Source: Bradyrhizobium diazoefficiens
Lineage (GTDB): Bacteria; Pseudomonadota; Alphaproteobacteria; Rhizobiales; Xanthobacteraceae
Reading direction: 5' to 3'
NCBI RefSeq assembly: GCF_018131015.1
Contig: NZ_JAFCJJ010000006.1
Span: 1-64,000 of the forward strand
DNA: 64,000 bases
Below, piece after piece: positions 1 through 50,465 of this stretch (its first letter is position 1; each line of letters opens with the position of its first letter). The notes below the pieces were generated by a model, which had not been told where the DNA came from, searched no databases, and saw nothing but the letters and a program-made list of their open reading frames with translations. Position numbers and translations under genes: made by a program.

Positions 1-108
1 CATCAATCGACTTGACCAATGACCAACCTGTCAGTGATGTGTCCGAACAGGTGTCAGCTATGTCTCCGGTCTAAACATTTCGCGGGTGATGACACCGAAT
101 TTGGAGCC

Positions 109-822
109 TCAGCCCCTCGCCACAAACTCCCGCCACCCCTTCGCGCGCAAACTGCACGCCGGGCATTCGCCGCAGCCATAACCCCAATCGTGGCACGCGC
201 CGCGTTCGCCGAGATAGCAGGTGTGCGACTGCTCGCGGATGAGGTCGACAAGCCCCTCTCCGCCGAGGTCCTGCGCGAGCTTCCAGGTCGCGGCCTTGTC
301 GATCCACATCAACGGCGTGTGCAGCTCGAACTTCCTCGCCATGCCGAGCGAGAGCGCGGCCTGCATGGCGCGGATGGTTTCGTCGCGGCAATCGGGATAG
401 CCGGAATAGTCGGTCTCGCACATGCCGCCGACGATGTCCTTGATGCCGCGGCGGTAGGCCAGCGCCGCGGCAAAGGTCAAAAACACCAGGTTGCGACCGG
501 GCACAAAGGTATTCGGCAGGCCATCGGCGCCCATCGCGATCGCAACATCGCGCGTCAGCGCCGTCTCGGAGACGGCCGCAAGCGTCGGGATCGACAGCGT
601 GTGGCTCTCACCGAGCCTTGCGGCCCAGTCCGCGTGCAAGCCTTTCACCCCGTCGAGCAGCCGGTCGCGGCAGGAAAGCTCGATGGCATGGCGCTGGCCG
701 TACTCGAACCCCAGCGTCTCGACGCGCGCGAAGCGGTCAAGCGCCCAGGCGAGGCAAGTGGTGGAATCCTGGCCGCCGGAAAACAGCACCAGCGCGGTTT
801 GAGATTGGAATGGGTGGGTCAT
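109..822 (-). CDS. queC: 7-cyano-7-deazaguanine synthase QueC
   Basis: QueC makes preQ0 from 7-carboxy-7-deazaguanine, ammonia and ATP in the queuosine pathway of tRNA modification; it is cytosolic. The 237-residue product has the PP-loop ATP-binding motif LFSGGQDST near residue 14 and, near the C-terminus, the zinc-binding cysteine cluster (SHTCYLGER, then [14 protein letters not shown]) followed by the conserved R-A-K-G-W region. Length matches the family. The start MTHPFQSQ is the only one giving a normal N-terminus before the PP-loop. It is monocistronic, with a divergent small membrane-protein gene upstream. The identification is secure. Confidence 0.95.
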
Positions 823-2446: not shown

Positions 2447-3831
2447 TAGCTAACCGACAGATGCGGCACCGCGTCGAACCGGTTCACGACGATGTCGCGC
2501 TTGGTCTCGTCCACCCGCACCGTCATGTCGAAGCGGCCGTCGTGCAGCTCTTTTGCCAGCACCTCGGAATTGCGATGCAGCCAGGAAATGCCGGCGCCGT
2601 CGGCGGCGTCGATGGAGAGATCGAGCGTGGTGCGCTTTGCCGCGAGCCGTTCCTCGATAGCCGCAAGCAACGCATCGACGCCCTCGCCCGACACGGCCGA
2701 CACCAGCATCGCCGGATGATCCTCCGGGCGGCGCGCCGCGATGTTCAAGAGCTCCTCGCGCTGCTCGGCGTCGAAGCGGTCGATCTTGTTCCAGACCTCG
2801 ATGATACGGCCGCTGTCGTCGGGATTGATGCCGAGCTGGCGCAGCACCGCGTCGACGTCGCTCTGCTGGGCCTCGGCGTCCTCATGCGCGATGTCGCGCA
2901 CGTGCAGGATGACGTCGGCCTCCAGCACCTCCTCGAGCGTGGCGCGGAAGGCGGCGACGAGCTGGGTCGGCAGATTGGAGATGAAGCCGACGGTGTCAGA
3001 GAGCATCGCCTTGCCGCCATGCGGCAGGTTGAGCGCGCGCAAGGTCGGATCGAGCGTGGCGAACAGCATGTCGGCGGCCTGCACGTCGGCACGGGTCAGG
3101 CGGTTGAACAGCGTGGACTTGCCGGCATTGGTGTAGCCGACCAGCGCGACGACGCGATACGGCACGCGCTGGCGGCCGGCACGGTGCAGCCGCCGCGTCG
3201 CCTGGACCTTCTTCAGCTCGCCCTCGAGCTTTGAGATGCGCTCCTGGATCAGGCGGCGGTCGGCCTCGATCTGGGTCTCGCCGGGACCGCCCATGAAACC
3301 GAAGCCGCCACGCTGGCGTTCGAGATGGGTCCAGGAGCGGACGAGGCGCGAGCGCTGGTAGTTGAGATGGGCGAGCTCGACCTGGAGCGAGCCCTCCTTG
3401 GTCTTGGCGCGGCGCCCGAAGATTTCCAGGATCAGCCCAGTGCGGTCGAGCACCTTGGCGTGCAACTCCTTTTCGAGATTGCGCTGCTGGATCGGCGCCA
3501 GCGCGCAATCCATCACCACCAGCTCGACGTCAAGGCTCTTGGCGAGCGCGGCGATCTCCTCGACCTTGCCCTTGCCTATGTAAGTGGCGGGCCGGATCTG
3601 GCTGATCGGCGCGATGATCGCATCGGCGATGACGAGATCGATCGCGCGCGCAAGGCCGGCGGCTTCATCGAGCCGGGCCTCGGCGTCGCGCTGAACATGA
3701 CTCTCCGATTGCGCGTCGGCCTGTCCCGCGCGCAGCCGCAAATAGGGGCCGATGACAAGCACCCGCCCCGTCTGCCCTGCCCCTGCCGACCGCGGACGGT
3801 CGGCATCCCCGTCGAAATTCCGGGGTTCCAA
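2446..3831 (-). CDS. hflX: Ribosome-associated GTPase HflX
   Basis: HflX is a GTPase that binds 50S/70S ribosomes and splits stalled ribosomes under stress. The 461-residue product has the N-terminal HflX domain ([25 protein letters not shown]), the glycine-rich linker [19 protein letters not shown], and the GTPase domain with G1 [10 protein letters not shown]3 DTVGFI and G4 NKID. It starts 11 bp after hfq ends, so hfq-hflX are co-transcribed, as in many proteobacteria; the ntr operon lies upstream on the same strand. Its stop codon overlaps the end of the palindromic element. Confidence 0.95.
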
Positions 3832-3842
3832 TCAGATCACTC

Positions 3843-4091
3843 TCAAGCCGGCTGGTCCTCGCCGCCTTCGAACAACTGGATCGGCGCGCCCGGCATGATG
3901 GTCGAGATCGCATGCTTGTAGACGAGCTGCGAATGACCGTCGCGCCGAAGCAGCAAACAGAAATTGTCGAACCAGGTCACGATGCCCTGGAGCTTCACTC
4001 CGTTGACCAGAAAGATCGTCAGTGGCGTCTTGGTTTTTCGAACGTGATTAAGGAATGTGTCCTGAAGGTTTTGTGCGCGGTCTGCCGCCAT
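3843..4091 (-). CDS. hfq: RNA chaperone Hfq
   Basis: Hfq forms a hexameric ring that pairs small RNAs with mRNAs; in diazotrophic alphaproteobacteria it also affects nif gene regulation. The 82-residue product has the Sm1 region ([20 protein letters not shown], then VNGVKLQG) and the Sm2 motif (YKHAIST) typical of Hfq. Size is typical for alphaproteobacteria. It is followed after 11 bp by hflX. About 240 bp separate it from ntrX upstream, including a stem-loop next to the ntrX stop, so it probably also has its own promoter in that gap. Confidence 0.97.
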
Positions 4092-4315
4092 TGTTTTTTT
4101 CTCGCTGTTTCTTTTTATTGCGCCGGTCGCGGTCCTCTTTTGAAATCCTGGGCCCTCTCCCGGTTGCTATTCCTCATGAGATCCCCCTCGGAGGAACAGC
4201 GCGTCGATTAGAGGACAGGTCGAGATATTAGGCAAGCCGCTTCAAGCGGCATGCCCTGCCCCGACGCTCCGAAAATCTACGAAAATCGACGCTTTTCCTC
4301 GCCTGTCCCTGAGGT

Positions 4316-4332
4316 CCGCCGCGACGCGGCGG
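4316..4332 (-). terminator. GC-rich stem-loop downstream of ntrX
   Basis: CCGCCGCG and CGCGGCGG form a perfect hairpin only two bases beyond the ntrX stop codon. There is no T-run on the minus strand, so it is not a classical intrinsic terminator, but it may attenuate read-through into hfq or stabilise the ntr mRNA 3' end. A second short hairpin (GCCGCTT/AAGCGGC) lies about 70 bp further downstream on the minus strand. Confidence 0.4.
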
Positions 4333-4334
4333 TT

Positions 4335-5705
4335 TCAACCGACCCCCAGAGCCTTCAACTTCCGGTGTAGTGCCGATCGTTCCATGCCAACGAACTCCGC
4401 CGTGCGAGAAATATTTCCCGAGAATCGGCTGATCTGGGCAATCAAATAGTCGCGCTCGAACACTTCACGAGCCTCGCGCAGCGGCAAGCCCATGATGTGC
4501 TCGCCGTTGTTGCTGGTCGGCATCGCCGGTACCATCGAGCCGACGTCCTGCGGCAGCATGTCGGCGGTGATGATGACCTCCGGCCCGCCCGCGGCCAGGA
4601 TCATGACCCGCTCGACGTTGTTGCGGAGCTGCCGGACGTTGCCCGGCCAGACATGCGACTGCAGCACCGCCATCGCGTCCTGCCCGATCTGCCGCTTGGG
4701 CAGGCCGCTGCCGGCCGAGATCTGCTCCATGAAATAGTCGATCAGCTCCGGAATGTCCTCGCGCCGTTCCGACAGTGCGGGCACGCGGATCGGCACCACC
4801 GAGAGGCGGTGATAGAGATCCTCGCGGAAGTGGCCGGCCGCGATCTCCTCCTCGAGGTTGCGCGCGGTCGAGGAGATGATGCGCACGTCGACCTGCACCT
4901 TGCCCGTGCCGCCGACGCGCTGGAACGACTGCTCGACCAGCACGCGCAAGATCTTGTTCTGGGTCTCGCGCGGCATGTCCGCGATCTCGTCGATGAACAG
5001 CGTGCCGCCATGGGCTTCCTCGAGCGCCCCCGGCTTGCGCGCCTGCTCGCCGTTGGACTGCTCGATGCCGAACAGCTCGTGCTCCATGCGCTCGGGCGTG
5101 ATCGCGGCCGCGTTGATCACGACGAAGGGGCCGTCGGCGCGGCCCGACGCCGCATGCAGCGTCCGGGCGGTCAGCTCCTTGCCGGCGCCGGCAGGGCCGA
5201 CGATCAGGATGCGGCTGTTGGCCTTGGCCGCGCGCTCGATGGTCTGGCGCAGCTGGTTCATGCTCGGCGAGCGGCCGACGAGCTGGCTCGCGCTCGGCGC
5301 GAGCTGCTTCAGCTCCTTCACCTCGCGCTTCAGGCGCGAGTTCTCCAGCGCCCTCGTCGCGACCAGGATCAGCCGGTCGGCCTTGAACGGCTTCTCGATG
5401 AAGTCATAGGCGCCGCGCTTGATCGCGGCGACCGCGGTCTCGATGTTGCCGTGGCCGGAGATCATCACCACCGGAAGGTCGGCATTGTCCTTCTTGACCT
5501 GCTCCAGAAGCTGCAAGCCGTCGAGCTTGGAGCCCTGCAGCCAGATGTCGAGGAAGACCAGATGCGGCCGGCGGTTGGCGATTTCCGCCAGCGCCGTGTC
5601 GCTGTCGCGCGCGGTGCGGGTGACGAAGCCCTCGTCTTCGAGGATGCCCGCAACCAGATCCCGAATATCGGCCTCGTCATCGACAATCAGAATTTCACTT
5701 GCCAT
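4335..5705 (-). CDS. ntrX: Nitrogen-regulation response regulator NtrX
   Basis: NtrX is the response regulator partner of NtrY, linked to nitrogen, redox and envelope control in alphaproteobacteria. The 456-residue product has a receiver domain with the acidic pair D9/D10 and phospho-acceptor D53 (LVFLDIWL), a central AAA domain with Walker A GPAGAGKE and Walker B GGTLFIDEIADMP, and a Fis-type helix-turn-helix (GNISRTAEFVGMERSALHRKL). The sigma-54 contact loop GAFTGA is missing: the equivalent stretch after ELFGIEQ reads SNGEQARKPGALEE. That is usual for NtrX and argues against classic sigma-54 activation. It starts 17 bp after ntrY ends. Confidence 0.95.
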   Translation of the reverse strand: MASEILIVDDEADIRDLVAGILEDEGFVTRTARDSDTALAEIANRRPHLVFLDIWLQGSKLDGLQLLEQVKKDNADLPVVMISGHGNIETAVAAIKRGAYDFIEKPFKADRLILVATRALENSRLKREVKELKQLAPSASQLVGRSPSMNQLRQTIERAAKANSRILIVGPAGAGKELTARTLHAASGRADGPFVVINAAAITPERMEHELFGIEQSNGEQARKPGALEEAHGGTLFIDEIADMPRETQNKILRVLVEQSFQRVGGTGKVQVDVRIISSTARNLEEEIAAGHFREDLYHRLSVVPIRVPALSERREDIPELIDYFMEQISAGSGLPKRQIGQDAMAVLQSHVWPGNVRQLRNNVERVMILAAGGPEVIITADMLPQDVGSMVPAMPTSNNGEHIMGLPLREAREVFERDYLIAQISRFSGNISRTAEFVGMERSALHRKLKALGVG

Positions 5706-5722
5706 GGGTTGCGCCTGTCTTG

Positions 5723-8101
5723 TCAGCTGCCTGTTGAGGCTTCGATTTTCGTTGAATCATTAGTCATTTCAGCCGCCTCTTTGGTTTCGGCGGCCGCCTC
5801 TTTTGTTTCCTGGTCCTTGACCGCTTCCTTGCCGGCCACGTCAGTGGGCGATGTCGCCTCGCCTGCCCCAGCCTTGGCGGGGTGGCCCGAAATCGCAAAG
5901 CGCATCCGCATCCAGGCGCCGCGCTGGCCCTCCCGGAAGTCGGACGCGTCCTTCAGCTCTATGCGTCCTCCATGGTCTTCCAGCACGCGTCCGACGATCG
6001 CAAGGCCAAGGCCGGTGCCCTTGGCGCGCGTCGTGACGTAGGGCTCGAGCAGCCGCGAGCGAGCGACCTTGGGCAGGCCGATGCCGTTGTCGATGACGTC
6101 GATCAGCACGTCCTCGCCCTCGCGCGACACCACGACGTCGATGCGGCCCTTTCCGCCCAGCTCCTCCGGCGGGACCTGCTCGATCGCCTCGGTGGCGTTC
6201 TTGACGATGTTGGTGACCGCCTGCGAGATCAGCCGCCGGTCGAACTGGGCGCGCAGCGGGTCCTCCTTGAACTCGGCCTCGATATCGAGCTCGGGATGGG
6301 CGACCTTCATCAGGAACACCGCCTGACGCACGGTGTCGGCGACGTCCTCGCCCTCCATCACCGGCTTCGGCATCCGCGCAAAGCGCGAGAACTCGTCGAC
6401 CATGCGGCGGATGTCGTCGACCTGGCGCACGATGGTGTCGGTGCACTGGTCGAAGATCTGCTTGTCCTTGTCCTCGGTGATGGTCTTGCCGAACTTGCGG
6501 CGGATGCGCTCGGCGGAGAGCTGGATCGGCGTCAGCGGATTCTTGATCTCGTGGGCGATGCGGCGGGCGACGTCGCCCCAGGCCGAGGTGCGCTGCGCCG
6601 AGACCAGCTCGGTGATGTCGTCGAGCGTGATGATGTAGCTGTCGCGCGGCTGGCTGGTCTTCTCGGCGCTGACGCGGACCGACAGATTGCGCTCGGCGCC
6701 GTCGCGGGTGATCGTGATCTGGCCCTGCACCAGGCGCTGGGTCCCTTCCCGCGCCGCCTTCATCATCTCGTCGAGCTCCGGCAACACGTCGGAGAGCGGA
6801 TGGCCGAGGGTCTCGGCCTCGGAGTGCCCGATCAGCTTCTCGGCGGAACGGTTGAGGATGCCGACGCTGCCCGACGTGTCGACGCCGATGATGCCGGCGC
6901 TTGCCGACGACAGCACCGCCTCGATGAAGCGGCGGCGGCTGTCGATGAGGTCGCTGGCGCTGACGAGCTCGTCGCGCTGGCTGCGCAATTCCTGCGTCAT
7001 CTTGTTGAAGGTCTCGCCGAGCTGGGCGAGATCGCCCTCCGACTGGTGCACCGGCACCTTGACGTGGAGATCGCCGGTCGAGACGGTCTGGGCCGCGTTC
7101 ATCAGCCGCCGGATCGGCGCCACCAGCGAGTTGGCGAAGTTCAGCCCGAGCAGCACCGAAGCCATCAGGATGGTCAGCGCGATCACCGCGAACATCAGGG
7201 CAAACGCCACCTGGATCCCGAGCCGGCGCGACTCGATCTGGGCATATTCGGCGACGCTGATCTCCGTCTGGTTGACCTGACTGACGACGTTCGGGTCGAG
7301 CGGGCGGGCGACATAAAGGAACGTGTCGTTGAAGGCGCGCAGGCGGATCACCGCAGCGACGGAGCTCGCATCCGGAAGGATCGCGATTTCCGGCTCGGTC
7401 TCCTTGACGTTGCTGAGGAAGTCCGGCGCTGGCGGCGAATAGGCCAGCCGCACGCCGGTGGCGGCAGATTCCAGGATGTTGGTGCTCTTGTCGATGATCA
7501 TCGCGCCCGGCAAGTTGCGGGAGGCGGCGCTGGCCGTCAGCATTTCGCGAAACGACCGCCGATCCTGGTCGTAGAGCGGCCTCGCATGGGCGATGTCGTT
7601 GGCCATACCGAGAATGTCGCCCTGGATCAGCTGCGCATGGTCGTTCATGTAGGCGCGGGCGATCGTCAGCGAGTTCTGGATCACCTGCTTGGTCGGCCCG
7701 GAAAACAACCGGTCGAGGCCGCGCTCGATGGTGACGTTGGCGACAACCGCGACCAGCACCGCCGGCAGCACCGCCACGATCGAGAACAGGCTGACGATCT
7801 GGACGTGAAGACGTGCCGCCGCCCGGCCCCGTCGGCGCGCCAGGATGAGCTGCCAGAGCTCGCGGACGATGATCCCGACCAGCAGCAGGATCGTGGCGGC
7901 GTTGAGCAGGTAGAAGGAGCGGACCACTCCCGGCGTGGGATCGATCCCAGTCAGTCCGGTCAGGACCAGAAAGGTGAGCAGGGCCGACAACAGCGCCAGC
8001 GCCACGGCAAACGGCGCCAGCCAGCGCCGCACGGACCAGCGCCGGGGCTCTTCGGTTGAGGCCGTGTCAAAAGCTGCGGCCGAGGTATCTGCGCTGGTCA
8101 T
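5723..8101 (-). CDS. ntrY: Membrane sensor histidine kinase NtrY
   Basis: NtrY senses an envelope or redox signal and phosphorylates NtrX. From the ATG at 8101 the 792-residue protein has three N-terminal hydrophobic segments (about residues 28-50, 62-82, 99-122), a periplasmic sensor region up to about residue 300, a fourth membrane helix, a HAMP domain (SLVAPIRRLMNAAQTVSTGD), a PAS domain, the HisKA motif [15 protein letters not shown] with the phospho-histidine near residue 517, and a HATPase domain (NIVKNATEAI, GTGLGLAIV). The C-terminal 50 residues are Ala/Glu/Lys-rich and low complexity. The frame extends 32 codons upstream, but MTSADTSAAAF is the better start. Confidence 0.94.
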   Translation of the reverse strand: MTSADTSAAAFDTASTEEPRRWSVRRWLAPFAVALALLSALLTFLVLTGLTGIDPTPGVVRSFYLLNAATILLLVGIIVRELWQLILARRRGRAAARLHVQIVSLFSIVAVLPAVLVAVVANVTIERGLDRLFSGPTKQVIQNSLTIARAYMNDHAQLIQGDILGMANDIAHARPLYDQDRRSFREMLTASAASRNLPGAMIIDKSTNILESAATGVRLAYSPPAPDFLSNVKETEPEIAILPDASSVAAVIRLRAFNDTFLYVARPLDPNVVSQVNQTEISVAEYAQIESRRLGIQVAFALMFAVIALTILMASVLLGLNFANSLVAPIRRLMNAAQTVSTGDLHVKVPVHQSEGDLAQLGETFNKMTQELRSQRDELVSASDLIDSRRRFIEAVLSSASAGIIGVDTSGSVGILNRSAEKLIGHSEAETLGHPLSDVLPELDEMMKAAREGTQRLVQGQITITRDGAERNLSVRVSAEKTSQPRDSYIITLDDITELVSAQRTSAWGDVARRIAHEIKNPLTPIQLSAERIRRKFGKTITEDKDKQIFDQCTDTIVRQVDDIRRMVDEFSRFARMPKPVMEGEDVADTVRQAVFLMKVAHPELDIEAEFKEDPLRAQFDRRLISQAVTNIVKNATEAIEQVPPEELGGKGRIDVVVSREGEDVLIDVIDNGIGLPKVARSRLLEPYVTTRAKGTGLGLAIVGRVLEDHGGRIELKDASDFREGQRGAWMRMRFAISGHPAKAGAGEATSPTDVAGKEAVKDQETKEAAAETKEAAEMTNDSTKIEASTGS

Positions 8102-8284
8102 TCCGGCAATGGGTGATGAAAACGGGGGGCCGCGGACGGCGGCTACTGATGCATTCCTACCACAATGTGTTGCCGAATTGCGACAATTCCGCGGCACCCG
8201 GGTTGCGGCGGATTATCCACAGGTGCATGCAGGCCCGATGCACGTCAGGCGGAACGGAATCCGGCTCTCCCGGCTTGATGAGCC

Positions 8285-8431
8285 ATGGATAGGTTTTGTC
8301 TCGCAGTGATGGTTTCGGCGGTGCTGCTGCTGATCGTGGCCTCGGACCTCTTGGTCAATGGGCCCGGACTGCAGGAGCCGACAGCGCTCGCCGCCAACAT
8401 CCAGCCGGTCTCGGCCCGCCTGCTTCGGTGA
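8285..8431 (+). CDS. Possible 48-residue single-pass membrane peptide
   Basis: In the roughly 500-bp gap between ntrC and ntrY, the plus strand has an open frame from ATG 8285 that starts MDRFCLAVMVSAVLLL and runs as a hydrophobic N-terminal segment followed by a short polar tail ending at TGA 8431. It looks like a signal anchor or small exported peptide and is divergent from ntrY. No strong ribosome site is visible and I do not recognise the sequence, so it is a tentative call. Nothing else coding is seen in this gap. Confidence 0.3.
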   Translation: MDRFCLAVMVSAVLLLIVASDLLVNGPGLQEPTALAANIQPVSARLLR

Positions 8432-8597
8432 TCGCGGCGCCGCCCCCGCGCTCGATTGCCCCACCTGGAAATTCCCGAGGAACAATCCGGTCTGATTCGG
8501 ACTTCTGCTCACCGCGTCAGCCATCACGGCCAGCGCGATCCGGACAGGCTCGGCTCCGCCCTGGCGGGCGAAGCTGAGCCAGCGCCGGTGCCTCCAT

Positions 8598-10040
<1,443 letters not shown>

Positions 10041-41976: not shown

Positions 41977-42259
41977 GTGCTCTCCATATCCAGGGTTGAT
42001 CGGGCCGCATCAGCCGGATGATGCGAACTCTATGCCAAGCGACATGAATCGAAGGTTTCCGGCAATCCCCGGGCGATTCCGGTGACCGGGGTCGTGGCGC
42101 CGCCGCCAGCGGATGCCGCGCAGTCTGGAATCGGTCGCCAGACGCGCGCGCTTGACCCGCTAAGGTTGTTCTTGCCAGCGAGCCGACGTAGGATGTCGAT
42201 GCCCGCGATATTACGGCCGAAGTTATTGAGCGCAGGAATTTTAAGCAAAGACAACGGCA

Positions 42260-43792
42260 ATGCCGCTCGAAGACTATTGGTTCGACCGCGCCGCTGAAAT
42301 CAGGGTTGTGGCGGCGGATGGCAAGCCCATTCGACGGGGCTCCGGATTCATGATCGCGCCCGGCGTGATCCTGACGGCGCTGCATGTCGTCGTGGGAGAA
42401 CACGCGGTGCCGCGGACGCCGTTGTCCTGCGACGTTAGAATTCTCGCCGACATCAATGCCCACGGCCTCGACGATGCGAAGTACTGCAAGGCCGAGCTCA
42501 AATGGCCGGCTCCCGGCACCTCGATCGACGAGGCCGCCGACGCCGCACTGATCGTGGTCAGCGAGCAGGATCGCACACCGGGCATGATCGATTGCGCCGC
42601 CCTTCCCGTGCTCGACAGCCGCAACGCCTGCATCGTGGCCGGCGTCGGCATGCCCGCCTATGCGCAGGCGCTCGATCGCGTGCGCAACCGGGCCGGATTT
42701 CGCGAGATCAACGGCCGGATCGGCATCCGCCTAGAAACCGATGCACTGCTCGAGCTGACGCTGGACGATCAAAAGCATCCGGAGCCTGCCGAGTGGAAGG
42801 GTGCATCCGGTGCCGTGCTCCTCAACGCCAAGGGCGAGGCCCTGGTCGGAATTCTCGTCCACGCCGATCACACCGGCTATGACGCGATCAAGAGCGATCC
42901 GTCGCGCCCCTTCATGGTCGAGATGCTGGCCGATTTCGCCGAGACCGACGGCTTCCGGAACGTCGTCGATCTCGAGATCATGCACGAGGTCGCGGGCGCA
43001 CCGACCGCGGACATCCCGCAGAAGTACCTGCAGAAGGCTCGCGTTCTCCTGCACCGGCTCGACCGCACGAGCCAGGTCAGGCAACTCGCCAAGGTGCTGA
43101 AGAACGCAACGACGGACGCCTACCGGCCCGTCGTGCTGGTGTCGCACATGAAGGAGCAGGACTGTCCGGACGTTTTCATCGAGACCCTCTCGGCGCGATT
43201 GATGGAGGCGTTCAAGGAGCGCCAGCAGTGCTACTGGAAGCCGAGTGACCTGAGCTGGCGGCTCGCCGCCTCGCCGCGGCGGGCCGTCGCGGCACTGAAA
43301 TCCGATATCATCGACGATGTCGCGGCGGCCGACGACGCCGGCCTCGATGCCGCTCTTGAGGCCGGCCAAAGCAAGCGTTTCTTCGCGGTGCGGATCGATT
43401 CCGAGGCAGAAGCTCCGACCGAGGAGGCGCTGCGGGACTTGCTGCAATGGTGGTTCGCCCGGTCACATTGCAAGGACGGTCCGCCGATCCTGCTGATCCG
43501 GGTCATCGATTCCCTGAGCGACGGCGAGCAATGCCCGAAGGCGAAGGTCATCTACGGGCTCGTCGAGTCCCTGTTCACCGGCTCGCCTCCGTTTGTCGAT
43601 ATCGACCAGATCCTGGAGCCGTTGACGCGATGCCGGGTCAAGGATCTCGAGGAGTGGACCGACCTCAACCTGAAGGCTCATATCGGCAATCATTGCGATG
43701 CGCTGCTGAAGCGCTTCAACACGCGCATCGAAAGCAAGGTTGGTTCGGGGAATCCGTTCCGCCTGCGCATCATCCAGGAAGCACTCTATTGA
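42260..43792 (+). CDS. Trypsin-like serine protease with iSTAND-like region
   Basis: A 510-residue cytosolic protein, with no signal peptide. Residues 10-215 are a trypsin-like domain: RGSGFMIAPGVILTALHVV with His42, the Asp in EAADAALIVV (D94) and the nucleophile Ser183 in WKGASGAVLL, so the triad appears complete. Around residues 262-315, LLHRLDRTSQVRQLAKVLKN followed by PVVLVSHMKEQDCPDVFIE resembles the inactive-STAND domain linked to trypsin domains in predicted conflict systems. The C-terminal 190 residues are unassigned and may be the VMAP-type partner domain. It is the first gene of a four-gene cassette, 18 bp before the AAA gene. The lack of export signal separates it from DegP-type proteases. 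Confidence 0.8.
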   Translation: MPLEDYWFDRAAEIRVVAADGKPIRRGSGFMIAPGVILTALHVVVGEHAVPRTPLSCDVRILADINAHGLDDAKYCKAELKWPAPGTSIDEAADAALIVVSEQDRTPGMIDCAALPVLDSRNACIVAGVGMPAYAQALDRVRNRAGFREINGRIGIRLETDALLELTLDDQKHPEPAEWKGASGAVLLNAKGEALVGILVHADHTGYDAIKSDPSRPFMVEMLADFAETDGFRNVVDLEIMHEVAGAPTADIPQKYLQKARVLLHRLDRTSQVRQLAKVLKNATTDAYRPVVLVSHMKEQDCPDVFIETLSARLMEAFKERQQCYWKPSDLSWRLAASPRRAVAALKSDIIDDVAAADDAGLDAALEAGQSKRFFAVRIDSEAEAPTEEALRDLLQWWFARSHCKDGPPILLIRVIDSLSDGEQCPKAKVIYGLVESLFTGSPPFVDIDQILEPLTRCRVKDLEEWTDLNLKAHIGNHCDALLKRFNTRIESKVGSGNPFRLRIIQEALY

Positions 43793-43810
43793 ATTGATGG
43801 GGCCGCTGTC

Positions 43811-44941
43811 ATGGCAGACGATCGCATCGCTGATTTGCGCAAGCTGTTGGCCGAGGCCGGCGAGCCGGGTGAGCACGAGCCCTGGTTCTCGCCGCGGGTC
43901 ATGCCGCTCCTGCCCCGCCCGATCGGCGCCAAGAACTCCAGGAAGAAGTCGGACAGGACGGAGCCGACCTACAGCTTTTCTCCCGCGCACAAGCGCGCCA
44001 TTCAGGTCGCGCTGCTGCTCCGGCAGCCTCTGCTGCTGACGGGTGAGCCCGGCGTCGGCAAGACACAGTCGGCCCGCGCCCTCGCCCATGCTTTGGGGCT
44101 CCGCTATGACCGTTTCGACGTCAAGTCGACCACGACCGGCCGCGACCTGCTCTACAGCTTCGATGACGTGGCGCGCTTTCGCGATGCCGCGATGGCCCGC
44201 CTGGAGGGTGCATCGGCCAGAAGCGGCGGACTGGCCAGATATGTCGAGCTGTCGGCGCTCGGCCGCGCCATCGTGCTGTCAGCCGGAGCGGACAAGGAGG
44301 TGCCGAGCCATCTCTCGCGCAAGGCGCTGCTGGGCGAGGATGCGCCAGAGGACGGCGCGCTGACGCTCGGGAAATTGTTTCCCGGCGTCTTCAGGGAGCA
44401 GGCCGAGGCGCAAAGCCTGGTTCTCGTGGACGAGCTCGACAAGGCGCCACGGGACACGCCGAACGACCTGCTGGTCGAGTTCGAAGAAATGAGGTTGCGT
44501 ATTCCGGAGCTCGGCGACGTGCAGGTTGAGGCGGAGGAGAGCCGCTGGCCCGTTCTGATCGTGACGTCGAATTCGGAACGCAGTCTTCCCGACCCCTTCC
44601 TGCGGCGCTGCGTGTTCCATCATCTGACGCTCAGTCCGGACTCGCTGCCTGGAATCGTGCTGCTGCAGTTGCCCGACATGGCGGGGGATCCGGCCGTGGC
44701 GGAGCTGATCAAGGTCTTCAACGGCATCCGCGCCGACCTTACCGGCCTGCAAAAGCCGCCGAGCACGGCGGAGCTGATCGGTGCGGCCGCGCTGCTGCGG
44801 GCCTGGCCGCGCCAGGACGGCAACCCCGTCGACCTGAAGAATATGGAGCTGCAAAGGGCGCTCGCCGGCGTGCTCGGCAAGATCAAGGTCGATATTGATC
44901 TCATCGAGCAATATCTGGCCCGGCGCGCCTCACCGCCATGA
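43811..44941 (+). CDS. MoxR-type AAA+ ATPase
   Basis: A 376-residue AAA+ ATPase of the MoxR group. Walker A is GEPGVGKT (78-85), Walker B LVLVDELDKAP (203-213, D207/E208), sensor 1 TSNSE (252-256), followed by LPDPFLRRCVFHHL with the likely Arg finger. The insert region after Walker A (FDVKSTTTGRDLLYSFDDV) is the MoxR type. MoxR proteins work with vWA-domain partners to remodel targets. Here it lies between the protease gene and the vWA-like membrane protein gene, whose start overlaps its stop by 4 bp, so the three are very likely one complex. Confidence 0.9.
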   Translation: MADDRIADLRKLLAEAGEPGEHEPWFSPRVMPLLPRPIGAKNSRKKSDRTEPTYSFSPAHKRAIQVALLLRQPLLLTGEPGVGKTQSARALAHALGLRYDRFDVKSTTTGRDLLYSFDDVARFRDAAMARLEGASARSGGLARYVELSALGRAIVLSAGADKEVPSHLSRKALLGEDAPEDGALTLGKLFPGVFREQAEAQSLVLVDELDKAPRDTPNDLLVEFEEMRLRIPELGDVQVEAEESRWPVLIVTSNSERSLPDPFLRRCVFHHLTLSPDSLPGIVLLQLPDMAGDPAVAELIKVFNGIRADLTGLQKPPSTAELIGAAALLRAWPRQDGNPVDLKNMELQRALAGVLGKIKVDIDLIEQYLARRASPP

Positions 44942-47900
44942 TGGCCACAGCCAGCGAGATCGACGACGTCCGCCCGGCACTGGAGCGCCTGCTCGAGCCG
45001 CTGAACGGCACGCTCGACGATCTCCTGGACGCTGCCGCCGACGCCGGCATGCTCATCACGCAAGACCGGCGCCAGCGGCTCTATCTGCTCGCCTGGCGCC
45101 TCGCCGAGGCCGATATCACCTTTCGCGATGCGCACGATGCCGCAGTCACCCTCGGCTCGGTGCTGTGCGCGACCGCAGAGGATCAGGTGTCGTTCGCGCG
45201 CGAGCTTAACCGGATCTGGCGGGAGCCGGTGCCGGCAGGCTTCCTGGACCTTCTCAGAGGCAGGCGGGGCGAGGAAAGAAGCCGCCCCGCCGACCGACCT
45301 GCACCACGATTGGCACCGGCGCTGGCGCGGCTCGCCGCGCGGCCTCTGTTGATTGCAATCTTGATCCTGACCGTCGTCGTCATCGTGTTGGGCCTGCTCG
45401 TCTGGTCAGTTGCGATGTTCCCGGGCGACCAGCCGTCCGCACTTCCGACCCTGCCGAACCTGCCTGTGCGCAAGGAGGGCGACCTGCTGCTCGCCGCAGC
45501 GCTCGACGTCGCCCAGCGCATGCTGCTTGCCCTGCCCGCAGCGATAGCTGCCTGGTTGGCGTGGACGTGGTGGAAACCGGCGACAAGGTCCCTCATTTCA
45601 AGGGAGCAAGGGGCGGCCGAGCAACTTGAGAGATTCACGCGTCCGGATTTCAACGCGCTGTTTCGGGGGACCACGGTCCGTCTTGCCTTCGATACCCTGC
45701 GGCGCGCCGTGCGGACGGAATCGTCGCGGGTCGACGTGCCGTCCTCGCTGCGCGCGACCGTGCGTGCCGCTGGCTGGCCGACCATTCGACGGGCCACCCA
45801 GCGCAACAGCCTTGAAGTGGTGCTGTTCGTCGACCGCGAAGGCGTGGCCGACCATCTCGCGTTCCTCGCTCAATTGCTCGAGGACCGTCTGCGCGCCGCC
45901 GGCGCAACGGTGACGCGCTACGATTTCCGCCTGATCCCGACCCGCCTGACCCAGGTCAGCGGACGGCCTGAGGGCACCCTCGTGGAGGACGTCGAACGCG
46001 TGGTGTCGCGCCATGTCGGCCAGCGCCTGATCCTGGTCGGCGATGGTCACGGTCTGGTTCAGGGTAACGATCTCGATGGCGAGTTGCGGCTGCGCCGCCT
46101 GCTCGGCGAGTTCGCCCAGGTTCATGTCCTGACCCCAACGCCTGAGGAGTGCTGGGAAGACCACGAGCGGCGCCTGCTCCAGGCCGGCTTCAACGTCGCC
46201 TTCTGCGACCGCCAGGGTCTCGAGGACACCGCACGCATCTCCACGCTGGTGGATTGGACCGAGCCCCTCGCGGCCCTGATCAGGACTATCCGCGGCGACG
46301 GCGATCCATTCCTGTCGCATCTGGAAGCCGAATATCACCGCTATGCCGCCGACTATCCGCTCATTCAGCCCAGGGAAGGCGCGCCGGACGGACCGATTGC
46401 CACGACCGGCTTGAGTGCGCTCCAGATCCGCGCGCTGGTGTCCTCGCTGCAGGCCTGGATGGGCTCGCGCCCCGCGCTCCGGCTGTTGGTCGCGATCGCC
46501 GTTTTTCCGAGCGTGAAGCCCGCCTATACCTTTGCGATCGCCGACGCGCTGCGACAGGACCCGGACGCACCGGGCGCCGAGCTCGGCGAGGAGCTCTATG
46601 CGCGGCTTGCCCGGCTGCCGTGGCTGCGTGACGGCCGCTTCCCCGACTGGCTCCGCCTCGCGCTGGTCAGGCGGTTGACCGACACCGAGCGCGAGGCCAT
46701 GGCGCGCGCGCATGTCAAGCTGCTGGCGCCGATGGCGGTCGCGCACGGCGAGGTCCTTGCGCAGGCAAGCCTGGAGATCGCCAGGCGCAGCCTCCGCGCC
46801 AACATGAACCCCGATCATCCGATGGCGGAGCGTCTGTTCCTGGCCACGCTGTTCGGCCAGCCTCCAAAATCCGACCTGCTGCGTCCGCAAGCCAGTGCGG
46901 CCATGACCGAGCGGCTGGGCGAGCAATTGAAGCTGGCATCCCGGATCGTCGGCTCCGGATTTTTTGCCGTCGCGATCCTCTGCTTCCTGTTCAAGGACAG
47001 CATCGTGCTGCCGCTGCTGGCTGCAGCCGAGCAAGGGATTCGGACTTCCATATCCCCGCTCCTCCCCGAAATCCCGCCTGCCATCGCCGCGGCGTCGGTC
47101 GTCTGCTCGCTGCTGGCGTTTTTCTGGCCCGGACGCCGGGCCGGGACCACGGCGGAAGCGCCGGCGGAATCGATCTGGGACCGGTTGCGCCGCGAGCCAT
47201 GGTGGCTTCGCCCGTCGCTGGGCGCGACCAGCCTCATCTTGTCCGCGTTGAGCTTCAAGGCGGACTTTGGCCGCTCGTCCGAACTCCCGCTCGCGACGAT
47301 GCTGCTGTCCCTGGCAACGCTCGCAAACGTCGTGCTGGAGCGGCATCCGCGCTGGAACAGCGATCTCCGGGTGTTGCCGGACGTCGACGAAGCGGGCGTC
47401 TCGGGCGCGGCGTCGAGCTACCGGCTTGGAGACATCATCGCGTCTCAGGCCATGCTGGGACCGTCCCTTGCCGCCGTGGGCCTGCTGTTTCTCGGCGGCT
47501 CCGTCATCTTTGCGATGTTTGCGGCGATCGTCATTCTGTCCAATTCCTGGATGGGATCATTCGTGACGGTGCCGATCGCATCCCTTGCATGGATGGCTTA
47601 TGCCGTAGTCCTGCGCCGGAGCGTGCTGGGGTCATGGTTGTTGACCGCTCCCGACGGGACGCAACGGCACATCTTGACCGATTTTTGCGCGGCTGCGGTG
47701 GCGCTTTCGATCGGGCTTGTCGGCAGCCACGCCGCCGAGCTCAGGTCCAATTGGACCAGCTTCGGTCCCGTAGTCCTGCTGTTGTTTACGCTCCTGACGA
47801 TGTTTTTGCCGTTCGATGCGCTCGGGCTCCGCCCATTCGCGACGCCGGCACCGCAGGGCGGCCGCGTGCGCGCCAATATCGCGATCTCGTTTCTGACCTC

Positions 47901-49704
47901 GGCGCTGGCCGTTGCGGCCGGAGGCATTCTGGCCGCCTTGGGCCAGGCGCTTGCCATTTTCCTGGGAGTGCTCGCCGCCACCATCATCGTGCATTTCGTC
48001 GCCTCGACAGCGCTGGTTCGAATCTCCGGCCCCTCGATCTCGCAACGTGAGAGATTTGTTCTCTCGCTGCGTCAAATCGGCTTGGCAAAAGGCCTGTCGG
48101 TCCATGCGGCAATGACGGTGCTGCTGCCGCCCATCGCATTGGAAGCCCTGCTCTGGTTCGAGAACAGGCCGTCAGTCGATCGCGTGTTTCTGGGCTGGTT
48201 CATGCTCCTGGCGTTCTGGCCGCTGGTGCGGGTGTTCGGCGCCGTTCCGCTGGTCGAGGCTCTCAAGGCGCGGCAATCCGGCAAGGTGCCGGTTGCCCTC
48301 CCGATCTTCCAGAAATCCTACCTGGACTCGCCGTGGCCGATGGCGCTGGTGCTACTGGCCGTCTGTCTGTGGCCTTGGTATGCGCTCGCTACCGGGCGCT
48401 TCAGCCCCTGGCTGCAATACGTGATGCTCTTGGCGCCATGGATTTGCGTGCCCGCCGGCTATCGCTATGGACGCGCCGCATTCGGGCCGATGATGTTCGG
48501 GCTGCTTCCCTTTGTGATCGGCGTGCAAACCAAGCACGGCACGCTCCTCGCCGAGCCGGCGTTCGTGGTGGCGATGTTGTTCTGGGTGCGCTTCGCAGGC
48601 GATCCGGCGCTGCGCCAGGCCCTGCTTGCGCGGGAGACGTTGCCGCTATCCGATCTGGTGATGCTGGCGGTCGCGTTCGCCTTCACGTTGACCATCCAGG
48701 GGCCGCCCGGCGAAGGTCTGGTTCTGAACTATGAGGGGGACTGGCTCGTTCTCACCGCGGCCTTCCTCATAGGTCTGTCGCGGATGCCGGTCCGCGGGTT
48801 CCTGTTGATGCTGGGCTGCCTCGCCCTGCTCCGGATCGGGATCGACTGGACGACACTCACGTCGAAGGAGTTTGGCAGCGCGTTGTGGGCGCGTGGCATC
48901 ATTCCATCCGAAGTCAAGGCCAACGGACTGGTCCTGCTCTACGGGTTGCCTTGGGTGACTGCCGTGTGCGCATTCGCGGCGACGTTGCTGGCGCGCCTGG
49001 GGCTGCGAGCGGCCATGCTGGCGGACGGCTCGAAAGCGACGCAGCGCGGCTCGGAGCCATTTGCATCGATCATTTCGCGCAATGTCCTCTCGGAGCGAAC
49101 TCCGTTCATCTTGTTCTTTTGGGGCCAGGTCACGTGGCTGGCCGGACTCGTCCTGTTCAACAGCGAAATTGAGCTCGACGCGTTGTCCAACGCGCTCGAT
49201 CGCAACCCGATCGTTGTCTGTGCCGGCCTGATGATCGGCCTCAGCGCATCACGCCTGCGCGATCTGGGGAATAACTTCCTCGTGATTGTCCCTCTCGGAG
49301 CACTATCCTGGTTCACGCTGCATCTTGGCGCGCCACCCGAAACGGCCAGCATCCCGTTTGTGAAATTTTTCGGAGCGTTCGTCTGGCCCTATCTGCTGCC
49401 TTGCCTGTTTGGTTTTGCGCTACGCGCCTGCGCCGAGGGACGCTGGCGGTTGTGGACGGGCGCCGACGTTCTGTCGGCTGCGCAGGCCTTCTGGGCGACG
49501 CTCTCGCGGCGCCTGCCGGGACGCGCGCCGGAGCCTGAGCTGGAATCCGAAGCGCCGACCGTCGATGGTGCCAGCGCCGCGGGCCCGGCCTCCGCCGCGT
49601 CAGAGGAGCAAAGTGAAGCTTCGGACGTGGATCCAGTCTCATCACCTGACGGGGAGGTGGCGCGAAAGCCGAGCAAGAAGCCGACGATGGAGACAAGGAA
49701 ATGA
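44938..49704 (+). CDS. Giant membrane protein with vWA-like domain (1588 aa)
   Basis: Residues 1-115 are soluble and helical (EIDDVRPALERLLEPLNGTL); two membrane helices follow (about 137-160 and 190-208). Residues about 285-440 resemble a vWA Rossmann domain: LEVVLFVDREGVADH at 292, RLILVGDGHGLVQ near 363, VHVLTPTPEECWEDHERRL near 396. The metal-site DxSxS is degenerate (DREG). A helical region runs to about 665, then roughly 20 hydrophobic segments to about 1500, and a polar acidic tail. vWA-MoxR gene pairs are a recognised theme, but the large polytopic domain is unusual and I cannot name it. It overlaps the genes on both sides by 4 bp. Confidence 0.75.
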   Translation: MMATASEIDDVRPALERLLEPLNGTLDDLLDAAADAGMLITQDRRQRLYLLAWRLAEADITFRDAHDAAVTLGSVLCATAEDQVSFARELNRIWREPVPAGFLDLLRGRRGEERSRPADRPAPRLAPALARLAARPLLIAILILTVVVIVLGLLVWSVAMFPGDQPSALPTLPNLPVRKEGDLLLAAALDVAQRMLLALPAAIAAWLAWTWWKPATRSLISREQGAAEQLERFTRPDFNALFRGTTVRLAFDTLRRAVRTESSRVDVPSSLRATVRAAGWPTIRRATQRNSLEVVLFVDREGVADHLAFLAQLLEDRLRAAGATVTRYDFRLIPTRLTQVSGRPEGTLVEDVERVVSRHVGQRLILVGDGHGLVQGNDLDGELRLRRLLGEFAQVHVLTPTPEECWEDHERRLLQAGFNVAFCDRQGLEDTARISTLVDWTEPLAALIRTIRGDGDPFLSHLEAEYHRYAADYPLIQPREGAPDGPIATTGLSALQIRALVSSLQAWMGSRPALRLLVAIAVFPSVKPAYTFAIADALRQDPDAPGAELGEELYARLARLPWLRDGRFPDWLRLALVRRLTDTEREAMARAHVKLLAPMAVAHGEVLAQASLEIARRSLRANMNPDHPMAERLFLATLFGQPPKSDLLRPQASAAMTERLGEQLKLASRIVGSGFFAVAILCFLFKDSIVLPLLAAAEQGIRTSISPLLPEIPPAIAAASVVCSLLAFFWPGRRAGTTAEAPAESIWDRLRREPWWLRPSLGATSLILSALSFKADFGRSSELPLATMLLSLATLANVVLERHPRWNSDLRVLPDVDEAGVSGAASSYRLGDIIASQAMLGPSLAAVGLLFLGGSVIFAMFAAIVILSNSWMGSFVTVPIASLAWMAYAVVLRRSVLGSWLLTAPDGTQRHILTDFCAAAVALSIGLVGSHAAELRSNWTSFGPVVLLLFTLLTMFLPFDALGLRPFATPAPQGGRVRANIAISFLTSALAVAAGGILAALGQALAIFLGVLAATIIVHFVASTALVRISGPSISQRERFVLSLRQIGLAKGLSVHAAMTVLLPPIALEALLWFENRPSVDRVFLGWFMLLAFWPLVRVFGAVPLVEALKARQSGKVPVALPIFQKSYLDSPWPMALVLLAVCLWPWYALATGRFSPWLQYVMLLAPWICVPAGYRYGRAAFGPMMFGLLPFVIGVQTKHGTLLAEPAFVVAMLFWVRFAGDPALRQALLARETLPLSDLVMLAVAFAFTLTIQGPPGEGLVLNYEGDWLVLTAAFLIGLSRMPVRGFLLMLGCLALLRIGIDWTTLTSKEFGSALWARGIIPSEVKANGLVLLYGLPWVTAVCAFAATLLARLGLRAAMLADGSKATQRGSEPFASIISRNVLSERTPFILFFWGQVTWLAGLVLFNSEIELDALSNALDRNPIVVCAGLMIGLSASRLRDLGNNFLVIVPLGALSWFTLHLGAPPETASIPFVKFFGAFVWPYLLPCLFGFALRACAEGRWRLWTGADVLSAAQAFWATLSRRLPGRAPEPELESEAPTVDGASAAGPASAASEEQSEASDVDPVSSPDGEVARKPSKKPTMETRK

Positions 49705-50300
49705 AGTCCGCCAACCGCATTCCCATCATCCAGCGCCTCTTCGATGTTCCTGCCATCCGGCGCCTCCATGATTTCATCGCCACGCGCGTTGCTGACACGA
49801 GCAACGGCGGCGGCACGCTGGGGTACGATGCGTTGGTTCGCCAGACCTTCGGGACCAGGCGCGAGGCAGAATTCGCTGGTCTATCCAGGGCGGAGGTGCG
49901 CCTGCGCGCGCCGGTCCCCTTTGGCGAAGCGTTCGAGGATGTTTCACCCGAGGCGACGCGCGGCAGCGTGGCTGCGACGATCTTGGGTGCCCCCGGCATC
50001 GTCCTGGTGGTGGCCATGATCGTCGCCGTTGGCATCTGCATCGATGTCCAGCTCATGCAATCCAGCGATGCGGCCAAGGGCGCGACCAATGCGCCCGCGA
50101 CAACGAAGCCGGCCGGCACCCCAGCCTTGGCTCCCGCGCCATTGTCGAAGGGTATCACCCTCCCCGACCTGGACCCGCTTTCGAAACTCCGTCCCAATTC
50201 TGCCAATCAGGCAGCGCCAAGGCCGCCCCAGCCGTCCGGCAACGCGTCGTCCTCTGACGCGCAACCTCAGCAACTGCAGCAGCTCGATCCGCGCAAGTAA
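49701..50300 (+). CDS. Single-pass membrane protein of the protease-AAA cassette
   Basis: A 199-residue protein whose ATG overlaps the stop of the giant membrane protein gene (ATGA). The N-terminal 95 residues are soluble and basic (MKSANRIPIIQRLFDVPAIR), followed by one membrane helix (APGIVLVVAMIVAVGICIDV) and a Pro/Ala/Gln-rich, probably periplasmic tail. I do not recognise it; strict coupling suggests a subunit of the same complex. It ends about 90 bp before the 3' end of the opposite-strand tRNA-Cys. Confidence 0.7.
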   Translation: MKSANRIPIIQRLFDVPAIRRLHDFIATRVADTSNGGGTLGYDALVRQTFGTRREAEFAGLSRAEVRLRAPVPFGEAFEDVSPEATRGSVAATILGAPGIVLVVAMIVAVGICIDVQLMQSSDAAKGATNAPATTKPAGTPALAPAPLSKGITLPDLDPLSKLRPNSANQAAPRPPQPSGNASSSDAQPQQLQQLDPRK

Positions 50301-50391
50301 GTCCGAAGGAAGCTGGCGCAGGAACCGACGCGCGGCCGATCCCGTGCGGGCGGGACCTATCGAAAATAGCCATGAAATTTCAATTGATTAA

Positions 50392-50465
50392 TGGAGGCCA
50401 CGACCAGAATTGAACTGGTGTACACGGTTTTGCAGACCGTTGCGTAACCACTCCGCCACGTGGCC
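50392..50465 (-). tRNA. tRNA-Cys (GCA)
   Basis: A 74-nt cloverleaf on the minus strand. The acceptor GGCCACG pairs with CGTGGCC, followed by T73 (usual for tRNA-Cys) and an encoded CCA. The anticodon loop TCTGCAAA gives anticodon GCA, and the T-loop contains GTTCAATTC. It is the only RNA gene near the cassette. No direct repeat of its 3' end was noticed on the far side of the cassette. Confidence 0.97.

Follow-up and report, generated by a model that had tools for sequence, protein, structure and literature searches.

The stretch of DNA analyzed here (64,000 nucleotides of Bradyrhizobium diazoefficiens, hereafter the window) carries a compact four-gene cassette that, judged from its sequence, is very probably a ternary conflict system of the predicted iSTAND-class MoxR-vWA type, and the vWA component of this iSTAND-class system carries a polytopic membrane module. 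Systems of this class were named by Kaur et al. 2020 and, in the text of that paper that deals with them (PMC7159879), they combine a trypsin-iSTAND protein and a MoxR ATPase with a third partner, a vWA protein of CoxE-like type that has a membrane anchor, a helical linker and a variable C-terminus. The cassette and its relatives share with them the MoxR ATPase, the CoxE-like vWA protein with an N-terminal transmembrane segment, a third protein that joins an N-terminal peptidase or TIR domain to iSTAND, and a variable vWA C-terminus, for which FGS-type and Sel1 modules recur among the relatives compared here; the cassette differs from the systems of that text (PMC7159879) in a C-terminus of about 18 segments and in a fourth gene that encodes a single-pass, proline-rich protein. 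It is this polytopic and single-pass membrane module that is new relative to the described ternary systems: no description of a polytopic C-terminus or of a fourth single-pass proline-rich gene was found in the open-licence literature, including the accessible portions of PMC7159879, PMC8195603, PMC12839542 and PMC10907252, whose supplementary tables may list one.

A preliminary description of the window had already placed the cassette among the predicted NTP-dependent MoxR-vWA ternary conflict systems, and the sequence comparisons reported below support that placement. It had also read the cassette as a membrane-anchored version; N-terminal transmembrane segments occur in about 28% of iSTAND systems according to the relevant text of PMC7159879, and membrane anchoring is therefore not new in itself.

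Composition of the cassette

Table 1. Features of the cassette and its site; positions are those of the window, and residue numbers refer to the protein named.
Feature	Position	Strand	Basis or remark
Insertion, approximate limits against empty-site relatives	42080-50390	.	comparison with relatives
Protease gene P0001	42260-43792	+	ORF, 510 aa; trypsin-like serine protease fused to divergent iSTAND
Trypsin-like domain of P0001	residues ~27-198	+	Trypsin_2 match, triad H42/D94/S183
iSTAND domain of P0001	residues ~263-469	+	profile-profile comparison
ATPase gene P0002	43811-44941	+	ORF, 376 aa; MoxR-type AAA+ ATPase
vWA component gene P0003	44938-49704	+	ORF, 1588 aa
N-terminal helical domain of P0003, residues 5-94	44950-45219	+	AlphaFold2 helices; CoxE N-terminus in multiple alignment
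N-terminal hydrophobic segment (membrane anchor) of P0003, residues 137-155	45346-45402	+	hydropathy count
vWA (CoxE-like) domain of P0003, residues ~290-440	45805-46257	+	hhalign, AlphaFold2 model, alignment
Helical linker of P0003 with LPWLRDGRFPDWLR motif, residues ~494-622	46417-46803	+	model, alignment
Polytopic C-terminal module of P0003, residues 676-1495	46963-49422	+	~18 hydrophobic segments, hydropathy count
Single-pass membrane protein gene P0004	49701-50300	+	ORF, 199 aa; proline-rich C-terminal tail
tRNA-Cys(gca)	50392-50465	-	insertion at its 3' end

The four genes follow one another as the preliminary description had them: their ORF coordinates (Table 1), the 18-bp gap between P0001 and P0002 and the 4-bp overlaps of P0002 with P0003 and of P0003 with P0004 were all reproduced, and a second ATG at 44941 is a possible alternative start of P0003. 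The identical four-gene order recurs in a second genome of the genus (G027, locus L006) and on an Azospirillum plasmid, and dN/dS between the window and G027 stays below 0.5 for all four genes (NG86; one genome pair); on the strength of this shared order and of these ratios, the arrangement represents more than chance. The Azospirillum counterpart, operon AZOLI_RS19150-RS32635 of plasmid p2 of Azospirillum lipoferum 4B, presents the trypsin-iSTAND, MoxR, vWA-polytopic and small single-pass genes in the same order, and differs from the cassette by a Trypco2 gene upstream and by a polytopic part that is weakly alike (hhalign E 0.003).

The protease P0001 possesses the residues that had been proposed as its catalytic triad, namely H42 (in LTALH), D94 (in DEAADAALI) and S183 (in WKGASGAVL), and it matches Pfam Trypsin_2 at E 5e-5, though the 24.4 bits of this match lie under the cut-off of 27.6; the third component of one relative, P0006, passes the cut-off of Pfam Trypsin. 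The protease domain also matches the PADLOC model of LmuA, the protease effector of Lamassu (E 1.1e-6, residues 25-203); the likeness to Lamassu is, however, confined to this domain, and P0002, P0003 and P0004 match no Lamassu model. An AlphaFold2 model of P0001 (pLDDT 41) was too poor for use.

The Pfam iSTAND profile scores E 0.17 on P0001, far under its cut-off. An hhalign comparison of the iSTAND region, taken from P0001 and from the corresponding G027 protein, against five Pfam-positive relatives (P0005, P0007, L010, L011 and Azospirillum P0016) reached prob 96.2 and E 2e-9 over 196 columns, and prob 96.6 and E 5e-10 with a sixth row, L063 (no Pfam iSTAND match at E 1e-4), included; the same region compared with CoxE proteins as a control gave prob 1. 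The iSTAND-like stretch noticed at the outset is thus borne out. The third component of G017, in which the Pfam iSTAND profile detects nothing at E 1, matches the same five proteins at prob 92.3 and E 5e-7, so that these hhalign matches, together with the Pfam pass of Azospirillum P0016, provide iSTAND support in all four systems with a polytopic C-terminus.

VMAP ternary systems, to which the iSTAND systems form a sister class, resemble the cassette in their MoxR-vWA pair, their trypsin and, as regards the relatives, their Trypco partners, but differ in the third component, which here matches iSTAND. A VMAP reading, to which the preliminary description had pointed, was dropped in favor of iSTAND, considering that five relatives pass the Pfam iSTAND cut-off and that P0001 joins them by hhalign; a Pfam scan of P0001 at E ≤1 brought up no VMAP family, in a library that may hold no VMAP profile. 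Azospirillum and G017 each have a Trypco2 gene ahead of their trypsin gene, whereas none turned up in the window's own genome or in G027.

The second gene encodes, as proposed, an AAA ATPase of MoxR type: P0002 matches Pfam AAA_5 (E 6e-11), has midasin as its best relative in the PDB, and carries the motifs GEPGVGKT at residue 78 and DELDK at residue 207, residues 1-72 preceding the AAA match. For iSTAND-class systems a MoxR that lacks the N- and C-terminal extensions of the VMAP type would be expected. Two narrower identities were discarded, namely a MadB ATPase (NCBIfam MadB family AAA ATPase NF047784, E 4.5e-19, 68.7 bits against a curated cut-off of 475), for which a literature search gave nothing relevant among the matches listed, and the bpMoxR of the beta-propeller ternary system (PF20030, for which the score of 14.6 bits falls short of the cut-off of 27).

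The vWA component and its membrane module

The vWA domain claimed for P0003 is upheld by two lines of comparison, in that the region of residues ~290-440 is Rossmann-like in an AlphaFold2 model and hhalign pairs a profile built from the N-termini of five giant proteins with CoxE-type vWA proteins (PF05762) at prob 96.6 and E 6e-10 over residues 233-409. The model covers residues 1-640 (mean pLDDT 58) and displays, besides the Rossmann-like region, helices at the N-terminus and a further helical stretch at 494-622. The vWA chain 8ft6 superimposes on it with Z 10.2 and rmsd 2.8 over 127 aligned residues, in a tie with other Rossmannoid folds, so that this match supports the fold class only; Foldseek returned no match for the model at E 0.001 or better, and a PDB sequence search with a 12-row vWA alignment returned two weak matches (E 0.006 and 0.08), neither of them named vWA. 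The metal site retains the aspartates D299 and D369 but not the serine, the GGS of CoxE being replaced, and this loss of MIDAS serines makes peptide capture by the domain uncertain.

Ahead of the vWA domain, residues 5-94 form five helices in the AlphaFold2 model (block pLDDT 54, then 62-80); they align with the CoxE N-terminus only in the MAFFT alignment, and the hhalign match to CoxE stops short of them. In iSTAND-class systems a four-helical domain of CoxE type would be expected at this end of the vWA component. All segment counts given here come from simple hydropathy and not from a dedicated predictor. By this measure P0003 has, in addition to the anchor listed in Table 1, a possible second hydrophobic segment near 183-201, and a peak at 516 that falls within the helical linker and is probably no membrane segment. 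The linker itself may correspond to the region that Kaur et al. 2021 call vWA-L.

The same hydropathy count gives 18 hydrophobic segments beyond residue 670 of P0003 and a single membrane segment, 100-118, in P0004, which also has the proline-rich tail. Searches of P0003 against Pfam, PADLOC and NCBIfam at E ≤1 yielded no family above cut-off, Ost4 alone appearing at E 0.37, and the Azospirillum relative P0014 likewise matched no Pfam family at E ≤1; the record name of the Azospirillum vWA-polytopic protein (L047 7332-11567) is 'O-antigen polymerase', a name without Pfam support.

The polytopic domain and the last gene, singled out as new in the preliminary description, did turn out to be the unusual parts. 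A polytopic C-terminus is found in four of the 17 systems compared, each with a trypsin-type iSTAND partner (the trypsin systems that are not polytopic number three, and these are small numbers), and three of those four (window, G027 and Azospirillum) have a small gene for a single-pass proline-rich protein that overlaps the giant gene at its end. G017, the remaining one, has a membrane segment and a proline-rich tail at the end of the giant protein. Compared with a profile of the window and G027, the polytopic parts of P0009 (G017) and P0014 (Azospirillum) match weakly by hhalign, at E 4e-4 and 0.003 and with scores of 40.9 and 33.8 against 19.7 or less for six controls, the same region being matched in both; a HMMER profile of the window and G027 polytopic rows left P0009 and P0014 undetected. 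A stretch resembling EPAxxVAxxxxxRFxxDxxLR can be recognized by eye in all four polytopic parts, and on these sequence comparisons the four are likely, not proven, to be one family. The C-terminus of a Nostoc relative did not match the window/G027 polytopic profile (hhalign score 18.9).

Relatives of the vWA component

Seventeen vWA components were compared, that of the window included. Four relatives came from a search of 149 genomes with P0003 (five matches, including its own), four from a scan of genome contigs (five loci, the remaining one being the G124 contig), one from a plasmid search (two records) and seven from surveys with the linker segment, which is present in 7 of the 397 genomes surveyed from the order and in 6 of the 398 surveyed from the phylum (the own genome and G970 in both); these surveys also re-found L007, L011 and L013. 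L066, in which the linker motif is absent by pattern, was included on its match in the phylum survey; the relative L048 on a Nostoc plasmid and the Cylindrospermopsis relatives were left out of the 17, and L013, L060 and L065 are contig-end loci.

A lack of protease and ATPase genes beside homologues of the giant protein, which would have refuted the preliminary description, is not what the comparison showed. A MoxR-type gene directly precedes the vWA gene in 15 of the 17 systems, the other two contigs (L060 and L065) ending there; in 14 of the 16 relatives a frame with a MoxR-type Walker A ends no more than ~60 bases from where the vWA gene starts, and Pfam confirmed the neighboring MoxR in three of them (L008, L010 and L047). 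Twelve third-component enzymes could be assigned (seven trypsin, two of which, those of the window and G027, lie under the Pfam cut-off; four TIR; and one neighboring caspase), and a trypsin- or TIR-type gene accordingly stands alongside the giant-protein homologue in 11 of these 12 systems; the third component of L012 had no Pfam N-terminal match.

Among the 13 third components scanned with Pfam iSTAND, five pass the cut-off and L012 (E 0.01) is, like P0001, weak. No match was obtained at E 1 for L006 and P0006, and none at limits stricter than E 1 for L061-L064, of which L061, L062 and L064 are trypsin members scanned at E 1e-4 or 0.01; since these three are without a Pfam iSTAND match, iSTAND is not proven for every member. 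A survey of 297 order genomes with the Pfam iSTAND profile detected none, a result that shows little, given that in a check on five chosen genomes it detected only two, and G124, with a protein to which hmmscan gives 6e-6, was not one of them. A class-wide search with the vWA alignment gave matches in 101 of 385 genomes, most listed frames being ~400 aa long, and the three matches checked among the 30 loci given are CoxE-like proteins of PF05762.

The C-termini of the 17 vWA components comprise five with WD40, four polytopic, three with FGE-sulfatase, one with Sel1, one in Nostoc with eight segments, and three without a named module at the limits used; two of the five with WD40 also have a periplasmic-binding domain and two also have a caspase, the caspase domains lying within the vWA C-termini of L011 and L060. 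The vWA component of L007 (6098-10471, minus strand) combines WD40 with Peripla_BP_6 (E 6e-40), and that of L060 (476-5587, plus strand) combines WD40, Peripla_BP_6 (E 4e-14) and caspase; both thus have a ligand-binding fold on a switch protein of conflict type.

On the Nostoc edaphicum plasmid pNe_1, which is 44.5 kb long and typed mobilizable, a relative of the vWA component that carries no annotation comes after caspase and MoxR genes (L048 1972-5043). P0001 had no match in plasmids. The reading of the cassette as phage-borne was set aside, no relative of it having been found among viral contigs (searched with two short patterns) or phage records.

Genomic site and divergence

The site of the cassette beside tRNA-Cys is empty in two of the three relatives examined, G017 and G021, in which the sequence found to the left of the cassette (to ~42080) is followed by tRNA-Cys within ~90 bases, and is filled in the third, G027, in which the cassette occupies the same place and tRNA-Cys is reversed relative to the window (L077 19464-19537). 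Between the G027 cassette and its tRNA-Cys lies a gene for a 1117-aa DUF7379 and CHAT protein (L077 15767-19120, minus strand) that had no match in PADLOC, and the succession of empty sites, cassette and CHAT gene indicates that accessory genes are taken up here. A search for att-like repeats at tRNA-Cys gave none. In G021 a block of ~7 kb (L075 ~2689-9952), with a solute-binding protein, an FmdA-type amidase and a RidA-type protein, is situated on the left side of the empty site, ~1 kb away from it.

Of 265 genomes of the genus, 2, one of them the own genome, have close relatives of the polytopic part, a count that sees close relatives only and from whose list the divergent polytopic part of G017 is absent. 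Rarity in the genus and the site being empty in two of three relatives led us to reject a core housekeeping operon, the outcome that would have spoken against the preliminary description. Between the window and G027 (one genome pair), identity amounts to 86% for MoxR, 77% for the vWA part, 63% for the protease, 48-49% for the polytopic part and 43-46% for P0004 (43% over 182 columns), so that the polytopic part and the single-pass protein are the most changed.

Discussion

On sequence grounds we regard it as possible, verging on an even chance, that an envelope sensor acts through a vWA-MoxR switch to release a cytosolic protease, with growth arrest or death as the outcome, and we infer that the cassette serves defense or cell suicide. 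In such a mechanism the polytopic module and the single-pass protein, whose proline-rich tail is probably periplasmic on the predicted topology of P0004, would monitor the envelope, and an envelope event, e.g. phage entry or membrane damage, would act as the trigger. The vWA domain, docked to the MoxR ring, would be remodeled through ATP hydrolysis; once remodeled, it would release the iSTAND part, whereby the cytosolic trypsin domain would be freed or activated, and the freed protease would then cleave host or invader proteins until growth stops or the cell dies. With its sensor on the vWA side, this mechanism runs in the direction that PMC10907252 proposes for related systems. The fall in identity to G027 from the MoxR and vWA parts to the polytopic part and the single-pass protein was counted in favor of this mechanism, and so was mobility, given that G017 and G021 lack an insertion at the tRNA-Cys site and that the Azospirillum relative is carried on a plasmid typed conjugative. 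A tentative extension is that the polytopic part and the single-pass proline-rich protein might constitute a distinct, fast-evolving and envelope-spanning unit of input (or of killing), that is, a transmembrane immune receptor complex with an AAA+ ratchet. Against the envelope-sensor mechanism, the polytopic part could be a pore.

Signaling in the opposite direction seems to us somewhat unlikely: iSTAND would sense an invader in the cytosol, and cleavage of the vWA protein by trypsin would free the polytopic module to disrupt the inner membrane. This direction is that of the proposal of Kaur et al. 2020/2021, which in the pertinent text of PMC7159879 assigns sensing to the third component and the effector role to the C-terminus of the vWA protein, whereas a sensor on the vWA C-terminus is proposed for related systems in PMC10907252 and is stated in that part of it to await test. 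The caspases on two vWA C-termini of the present set (L011 and L060) in part favor an effector at that end; against this, most other vWA C-terminal modules are binding folds and enzymes are found on the third components, which favors a sensor on the vWA side. A module of ~18 segments is, furthermore, far above the size of known small pore effectors.

A role outside biological conflict, which we consider improbable, would make the cassette a chaperone for envelope protein quality or complex assembly in the manner of CoxD/CoxE or RavA-ViaA, with the protease dealing with failed substrates. CoxD/CoxE, RavA/ViaA and NorQ/NorD are indeed MoxR-vWA chaperone pairs and the vWA domain of P0003 matches proteins of CoxE type; none of them is known to include a protease, an iSTAND or a polytopic module. 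NorQD, which we take to be a MoxR-vWA pair, appears in the Foldseek list, but at E 0.05. A chaperone role would agree with the action of MoxR-vWA pairs in assembly mentioned in the text of PMC7159879, but it accords poorly with the patchy presence of the linker segment among order and phylum genomes, with the swapping of C-termini, with the replacement of trypsin by TIR and with insertion at a tRNA. Finally, that the polytopic module is an active transporter or a polysaccharide enzyme, the cassette regulating surface polysaccharide (e.g., a phage-receptor change), is very improbable, for the product name of P0014 and the many segments that suggest it stand against the lack of any family above cut-off for P0003 and of any Pfam family for P0014.

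Ternary MoxR-vWA systems are predicted to act as switches for immunity or cell suicide, and their signaling direction is disputed between Kaur et al. and PMC10907252, as far as the relevant parts of these sources go. If the envelope-sensor mechanism is true, an event at the inner membrane or in the periplasm would be coupled via the MoxR-vWA switch to a cytosolic protease. The compact four-gene version with a membrane module in Bradyrhizobium and Azospirillum would make the direction of signaling directly testable.
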